Below, one piece after another: positions 8,575 to 11,862 of a DNA stretch of 35,076 bases. The DNA lies in the NCBI GenBank assembly GCA_947448305.1, contig CANFME010000016.1:1-35076 (forward strand), in the 5' to 3' direction. Position 1 is the first letter of the stretch; each line of letters starts with the position of its first letter. The notes below the pieces were generated by a model. That model ran no database searches. It had not been told where the DNA came from and saw nothing but the letters and a program-made list of their open reading frames with translations. Both the position numbers and the translations under genes were made by a program. Source of the stretch: Burkholderiaceae bacterium (lineage in GTDB: Bacteria; Pseudomonadota; Gammaproteobacteria; Burkholderiales; Burkholderiaceae).

Positions 8575-9417
8575 TTAACGATTAGATCGGCGCTGAAATT
8601 CAATATCACCATATTTTGCTTGCACTGCGTCGTTGGTATTATCCGTATCCGTCATAATTCCGATAGCAATTAATTTTCCAGGATTTTCGCCGTAAGCCTT
8701 TTTGAAATCGGCTTCAATTGATCTGCGGTGGACTCGCCACTCACCTAAACCTTGACCCCCTGAGTCCACTACGATCGATTTAATCCGACTAATATGTTTA
8801 TTAGTAATGACTTCTTCTGCCCCATTTTTTTCTGACCAAATATACATTAAAGTCGCATACGGTAATTCGTGCCCACTAATTAGTTTTGCTAAATCAAAAG
8901 CGAGTTGATCTTTGAGGGATAGCGTGGATTTATCACCCTCAAAACCCAGTACGATTCTCAGTGGCGCGTCATCAACATGGCCTTGTGTGTTATCAGCCAG
9001 AGCAATGTTTTTTAATGCTTTCCATGTCCACTGAAGATCAAACCCTGTAATATCCTTTGCTTTTAAGGGCACAATGAGGCCGGAGGCGCTTGATTGTGCA
9101 TCGGCGTGAATTACATTTTTACCTTGGTAATGGTGCAAATAATATTTCGTTTTCTTCTTGTGAGGTGCTAAGGACCATAAATACCATCCCTCGACACCTT
9201 CATTACTTGAGATTTCTGACTGATCAGAAATCTCAAGTGATTTAGAAATCATTTGAGAAAATTTTCTAATTTCTGGCTCTAGTGGAACATCCTGAATAGG
9301 ACGTTGATTTTCAAGACTAGTAGTGTTTTCTTTGGGCGTCAGAGCGCAGCTTGTCATCAGCATCAAACTGAGCAGGCAACTAAATATCCGAATGAAATGA
9401 AATTGTGCTTTTATCAT
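8575..9417 (-). CDS. DUF3047-like predicted lipoprotein
   Basis: Lipobox-like LMLMTSC after signal peptide; LQWTWKA, YATLMYIWS, GIMTDTDNTN typical of DUF3047. Confidence 0.75.
   Translation of the reverse strand: MIKAQFHFIRIFSCLLSLMLMTSCALTPKENTTSLENQRPIQDVPLEPEIRKFSQMISKSLEISDQSEISSNEGVEGWYLWSLAPHKKKTKYYLHHYQGKNVIHADAQSSASGLIVPLKAKDITGFDLQWTWKALKNIALADNTQGHVDDAPLRIVLGFEGDKSTLSLKDQLAFDLAKLISGHELPYATLMYIWSEKNGAEEVITNKHISRIKSIVVDSGGQGLGEWRVHRRSIEADFKKAYGENPGKLIAIGIMTDTDNTNDAVQAKYGDIEFQRRSNR
9205..9238. repeat. Perfect 15-bp inverted repeat with 4-nt spacer inside a CDS
   Basis: ACTTGAGATTTCTGA (9205-9219) ctga TCAGAAATCTCAAGT (9224-9238). Confidence 0.95.
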
Positions 9418-9426
9418 TACCTGTTA

Positions 9427-10539
9427 TTAATTTTTTGGTACCAATAACCACATGCTACCTGATTGTTTTGTCATTCCCGCTTTTTCTCCAGCAAGATCAC
9501 CAGATCCCCAATAATAGTCAGCTCGAACACTTCCAACAATAGCACTCCCTGTGTCTTGAGCAAATACTAAGCTTTCTATCTTTTTACCAGTTTTAGGGTC
9601 TGAAGTACTTAAGAAAACCGGAGACCCTTTAGGGATATGTTGCCAATCTACGGCAATACTTCTTTGGGCAGTAAGTGGCTCACCTAAAGCACCAATCGGT
9701 CCATCCTCCATTAATCCACTTGAATTAATTTTAAAAAACACATATCTAGGATTTGCATTTAAAAGATCTTGGACACGCCCTGGATTTCTTTTTGCCCAAT
9801 TAGAAATATTTTGCATACTCGCTTGAGAAGTTGTCATTTCTTGCTGTTGAATCAACCAATTGGCAATGGATTTGTAAGGTTGATTGTTGGTGCCGGCAAA
9901 GCCTAGCCTGAGCATTTGACCATTTTCTAATTGGATTTTTCCTGATCCTTGAATTTGCATCATCGCTGCCGCCACTGGATCATTGACCCAAGCTATCTCA
10001 TTGCCTTTTAAAAGCGAACTTTTCAAAAGCTCTGCACGCGCTGGTCTCAGTAATTTGGTATCACTCTTCCAGGCAACTGGGTATTGGTATAGGGGAATTT
10101 GAAACCCTGGGATCTTTGTTAATGAACCCTTCAAAATTGGCTCATAATACCCAGTAATTAAGCCCTCTGCACTCCCTTGAGTATATCCATTACTGGGTAA
10201 AGCCTGTCGCAATGACAAGGTCTGAAAATTATTTTCAAAAAATTGCTTTACTTGCAAAGGGCTTGGATTTTTCAATTTGGCAGAATCTGTACAAAGCCTT
10301 TTTAAAGGGCTATCAATGCTTGCTTTTTGAAGATAGTTACAACTTTTTTGCCAAGTAGTCCAAACCCCATCCATCGCATCATCCTTCCAACCTGGTAAAG
10401 CACTCAGCTGATCAGTATTTTGATTTTGAAGCGAAAGTTCTGGAACGAACTTATCTTGGCTAGTCTTTGATGTGATATTGCGCTCTTGATTTGCGCAAGA
10501 GACGAGTAAAATAAGGAAGAATGCAATGAAGTATTTCAT
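9427..10539 (-). CDS. mltA: Membrane-bound lytic murein transglycosylase A
   Basis: Lipoprotein signal (LLVSCANQ), GLITGYYEP, IQGSGKIQLENG, 3D-like VFAQDTGSAIVGSVRADYYWGSG. Confidence 0.95.
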   Translation of the reverse strand: MKYFIAFFLILLVSCANQERNITSKTSQDKFVPELSLQNQNTDQLSALPGWKDDAMDGVWTTWQKSCNYLQKASIDSPLKRLCTDSAKLKNPSPLQVKQFFENNFQTLSLRQALPSNGYTQGSAEGLITGYYEPILKGSLTKIPGFQIPLYQYPVAWKSDTKLLRPARAELLKSSLLKGNEIAWVNDPVAAAMMQIQGSGKIQLENGQMLRLGFAGTNNQPYKSIANWLIQQQEMTTSQASMQNISNWAKRNPGRVQDLLNANPRYVFFKINSSGLMEDGPIGALGEPLTAQRSIAVDWQHIPKGSPVFLSTSDPKTGKKIESLVFAQDTGSAIVGSVRADYYWGSGDLAGEKAGMTKQSGSMWLLVPKN

Positions 10540-10586
10540 TCGTTACTCATTCATTACATTTTTTTAATTTCAGTAAAAGGTCACAG

Positions 10587-10709
10587 ATGCTAGCAGACTT
10601 ATTAGATGAATACCCCATGCTTTTATTAGTGGCAGAAGCTGGGGTTGCCTTGTTGATCCTTGTTTTCATTGTTGTTTGGACCATGATGGGTAGAAAAAAA
10701 GATGAGTAA
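10587..10709 (+). CDS. Predicted 40-aa single-pass membrane microprotein
   Basis: ATG at 10587, SD AAAGG at 10576-10580 (6-nt spacer), TAA at 10707-10709: MLADLLDEYPMLLLVAEAGVALLILVFIVVWTMMGRKKDE; below the ORF-track size cutoff. Confidence 0.6.
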   Translation: MLADLLDEYPMLLLVAEAGVALLILVFIVVWTMMGRKKDE

Positions 10710-10713
10710 AGGC

Positions 10714-11088
10714 CTAGTGTAGGATTCTTGGCATCGTTAATAGAAATTCTGGAATGGGGGCTGCAAAAAACTCCGCCTCCTCCGAAACACAGAAATAACT
10801 CCCTTTCATTTTCCCATCCGGCGACGGAATAGAAGCCCAACTTGTGTACTCAAATGATTCTCCAGGTCTGAGAAAAGGTTGCTGACCAACCACGCCTAAA
10901 CCGCGAACTTCTTGTTCTACGCCTTCTGTGTCGGTAATAACCCAATGTCTACCAATCAACTGGAATGGGACTTGCGATTCGTTTTTGATGATCATCGTAT
11001 AGGCAAAACTATAGTTGCCTTTTTCAGGAATTGACTGATCTTCTAAATACTGTACTTTTACCGTTATTTGAATTGCATACTCGCTCAT
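10714..11088 (-). CDS. apaG: Co2+/Mg2+ efflux protein ApaG
   Basis: FAYTMIIKNES, GRHWVITD, GVVGQQPFLRPGESFEYTS, MKGSY. Confidence 0.96.
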   Translation of the reverse strand: MSEYAIQITVKVQYLEDQSIPEKGNYSFAYTMIIKNESQVPFQLIGRHWVITDTEGVEQEVRGLGVVGQQPFLRPGESFEYTSWASIPSPDGKMKGSYFCVSEEAEFFAAPIPEFLLTMPRILH

Positions 11089-11157: not shown

Positions 11158-11862
11158 ATGAATAATAACTTACCTGCGATCATTGCACCATCGATCCTTT
11201 CTGCTGACTTTGCCTACTTAGGGCAAGAAGTTAAAGATGTCCTAAGTGCTGGTGCTGATTGGATTCACTTTGATGTGATGGATAATCACTTCGTTCCTAA
11301 CCTCACTATCGGTCCGCTCGTTTGTGAAGCAATTCGACCGCATGCCATAAAGAATGGGCATCCAGCCATTATTGACGTCCATTTAATGATTGAGCCGGTC
11401 GATGCATTGGTTCCAGAGTTTGCAAAAGCTGGTGCTAATTTGATTAGTTTTCACCCGGAAGCAAGTACTCACATAGATCGGACGATTAATTTAATTAAAG
11501 ATCAGGGGTGTCAAGTAGGCTTAGTCTTTAATCCGGCAACGCCATTGCATTATTTAGACCATGTTCTAGATAAACTCGATTTAATCTTATTAATGTCAGT
11601 AAACCCTGGCTTTGGTGGTCAGAAATTCATTCCGTCTACCCTTGAAAAACTAAAAGCTACTCGCAAATTGATTGATAGTTATACAGCCCAATCCGGCAGA
11701 GCTATTCGACTCGAAATTGATGGCGGAGTCAATCCAGATAATATTGGTGAGATTTATGCGGCTGGGGCAGATACCTTTGTTGCGGGTTCAGCCATCTTTG
11801 GAAAACCTGATTATGCCCAGATCATCAATGCCATGCGAACTTCTATTGCAAAAGTAAAATGA
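11158..11862 (+). CDS. rpe: Ribulose-phosphate 3-epimerase
   Basis: [44 protein letters not shown]. Confidence 0.98.

Follow-up and report, generated by a model that had tools for sequence, protein, structure and literature searches.

A conserved 40-codon gene between mltA and apaG

The window, that is, the whole 35,076-nucleotide stretch of Burkholderiaceae DNA that we analyzed, contains a real protein-coding gene of 40 codons between mltA and apaG, whose product (MLADLLDEYPMLLLVAEAGVALLILVFIVVWTMMGRKKDE) is predicted to be a single-pass inner-membrane microprotein. We propose that the gene is mostly free-standing, that its product would insert N-out/C-in, and that a conserved face of its single helix, formed by E17, A21, L24/L25, I28, and W31/T32, may dock onto a partner. 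The microprotein would then belong to an inner-membrane complex as a small subunit, accessory or regulatory, perhaps with a regulatory or stabilizing role, as CydX, CcoQ, and AcrZ do; taken as a whole, we give this reading about an even chance. The features on which we draw are as follows.

10587–10709, plus strand: microprotein gene, with ATG at 10587, 40 codons, and TAA at 10707–10709; conserved frame, dN/dS about 0.12.
10576–10580, plus strand: Shine-Dalgarno-like AAAGG, 6 nt (TCACAG) before the ATG.
10540–10586, 47 nt: divergent intergenic stretch from the mltA start codon to the microprotein start codon, read from the sequence.
9427–10539, minus strand: mltA, murein transglycosylase A, the divergent neighbor (PF03562, E = 1.9e-44; PF06725, E = 9.8e-21).
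10714–11088, minus strand: apaG, the convergent neighbor (PF04379, E = 6.4e-32; NF003967 over its cut-off).
11158–11862, plus strand: rpe, ribulose-phosphate 3-epimerase, in the conserved neighborhood (PF00834, E = 3.4e-85).
10635–10637, plus strand: codon of E17, an invariant glutamate (69/69 sequences), intramembrane in the predicted helix.
10677–10682, plus strand: codons of W31 and T32 at the C-terminal end of the helix (69/69 and 68/69 sequences).

Of the 174 nt that lie between the mltA and apaG genes, the open reading frame takes up 123, and 4 nt separate its TAA from the apaG stop codon, which begins at 10714. The sequence-only reading that preceded this work had placed the ATG at 10587, the AAAGG, the 40 codons, the TAA at 10707, and the 4-nt gap, all correct to the base. 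Since it runs toward apaG and away from mltA, the gene is probably monocistronic. As 47 nt lie between the mltA and microprotein starts, any promoters must overlap there or sit in coding DNA; no sigma-70-type consensus was found between the two starts. Downstream of mltA, on the minus strand (8575–9417), lies a gene for an uncharacterized DUF3047 protein with a lipoprotein-like N terminus (PF11249, E = 2.3e-59), and a weaker homologue of this gene likewise follows mltA at locus L003.

The reading frame is under purifying selection

The length of the frame alone is no proof of coding, since many frames of 30 to 50 amino acids occur in the same 5 kb. We therefore rely on conservation, which is far beyond chance. 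A protein search of the window genome and 60 relatives returned a homologue at E 1e-8 or better in 35 of the 37 same-genus genomes; the two genomes with no clear match are one that is 78% complete (G028) and one in which mltA is at a contig end (G025). The dN/dS ratio was about 0.12 (33 genus sequences; 166 pairs with pS below 0.6). Entropy at the three codon positions was 0.59, 0.27, and 1.20 bits in frame, while both flanks gave 1.6 to 1.9 bits with no period. Together, these results are decisive for coding. In the closest relatives, too, an AAGGA/AAAGG-type motif stands ahead of the start, which is TTG instead of ATG in one same-genus subclade (L004–L009); for several homologues, the start was assigned by a scripted rule. 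The sequence-only reading had taken the frame for a real small protein, to be checked by frame conservation, synteny, and dN/dS, and this was borne out: the frame and the locus are kept and selection is purifying.

Conserved non-coding DNA, such as a shared promoter region, could in principle be open by chance, and the frame does sit in a short divergent intergenic region. This explanation is contradicted by the third codon positions, which vary freely while the amino acids stay; in addition, the length of the segment after the helix changes by whole codons, and the frame persists where the neighboring gene differs. We give the non-coding explanation practically no credence.

The family is distributed over the order Burkholderiales at a conserved locus

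To describe the distribution, we used an even sample of 300 genomes from the order Burkholderiales. A 28-row profile matched 154 of these at E ≤ 0.01, and a 69-row profile matched 164 at E ≤ 0.02, 148 of them at E ≤ 1e-5; these 148 are our confident carriers, counted, like the cross-tables below, by reading the match lists. A sequence scan of genome contigs found at least 229 relatives, in organisms including Thiobacillus, Massilia, Herbaspirillum, Noviherbaspirillum, Duganella, Curvibacter, Chitinimonas, and Oxalicibacterium. No homologue was found in plasmid records. Outside the order, the sole clear homologue among the sampled genomes of the class was that of G259 (MIWLILEALVALALLVGIVLWVALPAKKK). 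This homologue (L088/L054) reads LWVALPAKKK where others have WWTLPRKK, and its neighbors have no cluster in common with the other loci. A second match outside the order, in G170 (E = 0.0036), was rejected as CcoQ.

Among 80 loci fetched by sequence alone, mltA was the nearest recognized upstream gene, in divergent orientation, in 74, and apaG lay downstream in 64. Of the remaining six, four had no visible mltA (partly owing to contig ends) and two had atm1. An ABC exporter that among solved structures is closest to the Atm1 family, with a match at E = 5.7e-183 to 4mrn, a bacterial heavy-metal exporter of the Atm1 type, is the divergent neighbor in families f14, f22, f185, f189, and f207, several of which have no apaG or mltA nearby. 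Family f205 has no mltA left, and there the microprotein gene is still beside apaG. One place is kept across tens of families, from the genus of the window to Thiobacillus, Massilia, and Herbaspirillum, and the microprotein is very likely useful.

The divergent arrangement in 74 of 80 loci could mean that the microprotein takes part in, or regulates, MltA function or peptidoglycan turnover. MltA is an outer-membrane lipoprotein, whereas the microprotein is expected in the inner membrane. Furthermore, MltA matches were found in 138 of 148 carriers and in 118 of 136 non-carriers (Fisher p = 0.075), a p-value that, like the one for Atm1 below, overstates the case because the genomes are related and not independent; 16 genomes with only weak microprotein matches were excluded from both tables. 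Put the other way, the genome yields no MltA match in 10 confident carriers, MltA occurs with the microprotein undetected in 118 genomes, and the f205 gene has stayed beside apaG despite the loss of mltA. The envelope link via mltA that the sequence-only reading had suggested is not supported by these counts, nor by the Atm1-type exporter that takes the divergent position in several families. MltA is unlikely to be an obligatory partner, and we regard any role of the microprotein in MltA function or peptidoglycan turnover as very improbable.

A single predicted transmembrane helix carries a conserved face

Family members range from 27 to about 70 residues, a spread that comes from the hydrophilic C-terminal tail. 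Across 69 sequences, E17 and W31 are invariant (69/69), followed by T32 (68), I28 (67), A21 (66), and V29 (62), and the conserved region can be written as E-A-x-x-A-L-x-L-x-x-F-I-V-[WVL]-W-T, then K/R. With this motif, annotators can recognize the family and geneticists can choose residues for mutation. The conservation spectrum peaked at 100 degrees per residue, the alpha-helical period, at nominal significance only (permutation p = 0.024), which points to constraint on one side of the helix. AlphaFold2, run on the single sequence, gave helices at residues 2–8 and 10–39, the latter one long helix with a mean pLDDT of 88.8. Members of family f195 at three loci (L231, L280, and L281) have diverged (e.g., MIESGFWIFLVETLGIGGMFVALIWWVVRGSDSRHRK); they keep the Glu and the Trp, and Val replaces Thr.

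No K/R precedes the helix in 68 of 69 members, and at least two K/R occur in the 10 residues after it in 67 of 69. Because K/R are scarce before the helix and present after it, we predict an N-out/C-in topology for what is probably a single transmembrane helix in the inner membrane; the earlier description of a bitopic N-out/C-in protein agrees with this charge pattern. A plain anchor helix would need no invariant face, from which we infer a packing partner, and the conserved face could equally mean homo-oligomerization. A small, hydrophobic, single-helix peptide might also be self-assembling or membrane-depolarizing, like a small toxin. Against this, the gene is single copy, stays at one site in tens of families, and is under strong purifying selection, and no antitoxin-like element was noticed; we consider a toxin-like peptide highly improbable.

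The family is distinct from known small subunits

Sequence searches of Pfam, NCBIfam, and the PDB returned no significant match to the microprotein family, and open-access literature on the locus, the motif, Ribo-seq, and transposon screens held nothing on the gene. The paper on the Pro-SMP finder reports, in general terms, on putative small membrane proteins encoded between genes (PMC10903887); its main text makes no mention of Burkholderia, Ralstonia, Bordetella, or mltA. We file the family as a new one among small bitopic membrane proteins, separate from CcoQ, CcmD, and CydX.

One resemblance was to CcoQ, which would make the microprotein a small respiratory-oxidase subunit and a distant CcoQ relative. 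Comparison with a profile of 20 CcoQ sequences gave a probability of 93.5% over 22 columns, and 11 of the 20 single CcoQ sequences scored higher than every one of 20 control helices chosen to have a basic C-terminal flank, although this control set is small. Both CcoQ/FixQ (PF05545) and the microprotein show the N-out/C-in pattern, a similar helix end, and a basic exit. The likeness is, however, confined to the helix end: the microprotein lacks the CcoQ tail, CcoQ lacks the invariant Glu, and the microprotein has, besides this Glu, the Trp-Thr pair and a different locus, outside any oxidase operon. Carriers with no FixQ match, which we used as a proxy for the oxidase, include G000, G016, G337, G365, G606, G578, and G445, and the window genome itself has no detectable CcoQ. 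The window protein did not match PF05545, and one of 28 members did so at E = 0.056. We regard a small oxidase subunit distantly related to CcoQ as a quite improbable identity for the microprotein.

Other small proteins share the general build. CcmD (PF04995) is likewise a small N-out/C-in helix, with weak matches in 6 of 28 members (best E = 0.036), but the window protein scored 13.1 bits against a cut-off of 25.6 and no cytochrome c maturation genes were noticed in the neighborhoods. CydX and other small membrane-enzyme subunits (PMC4325964) resemble the microprotein in having fewer than 50 residues, one helix with conserved residues, and a tendency to be missed by annotation; unlike them, the microprotein matches no Pfam or NCBIfam small-subunit model, with no CydX/YbgT among the matches at E ≤ 1, and shares no operon with a known complex. 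AcrZ-type transporter regulators (PMC7267776) are comparable in their single helix, which in the microprotein could pack on a transporter, Atm1 being its recurrent divergent neighbor; no sequence similarity between the two was found.

An Atm1-type exporter is the only genomic lead to a partner

If the microprotein is an accessory or regulatory subunit, the only genomic lead to its partner, a lead and not a finding, is the Atm1-type ABC exporter. The microprotein could be an accessory subunit of this exporter (glutathione, heavy-metal, or Fe–S related) that binds its transmembrane region. In favor of this, the gene is divergent to atm1 in at least five families (those named above), and Atm1 was found in 144 of 148 confident carriers (including G466 and G570, in which atm1 is cut by contig ends) versus 95 of 136 non-carriers (Fisher p = 5e-11, overstated for the reason given for MltA). 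The association is nevertheless confounded by phylogeny, and in most families, that of the window included, atm1 is elsewhere in the genome. Contrasts within families are mixed: G488 has neither the microprotein nor an Atm1-grade match; the near-complete genomes G372 and G412 carry the microprotein, yet their closest ABC matches reach only 36 to 39% identity; and G593 and G509 have Atm1 without the microprotein. Many lineages likewise have Atm1 and no microprotein. On this balance, we consider an Atm1 accessory subunit distinctly unlikely.

More broadly, we postulate that the microprotein could be a small transmembrane subunit, so far undescribed, that in betaproteobacteria serves Atm1-type exporters or some other core machine of the inner membrane, with the Glu and Trp-Thr as its docking site. 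We hold this to be unlikely; if it is true, half of the order carries a component that went unnoticed because of its length of only 27 to 70 residues.

The losses bear on the partner as well. Families f15, f20, f21, f183, f190, and f201 are without the microprotein gene. It is absent from several families with complete genomes, so whatever the microprotein helps works without it there. In family f1, to which the window belongs, G488 (L233), a reduced genome of 1.2 Mb, is the only genome in the 300-genome sample to have lost the gene, and its mltA, apaG, and rpe remain adjoining. These families and G488 narrow the search for the partner.
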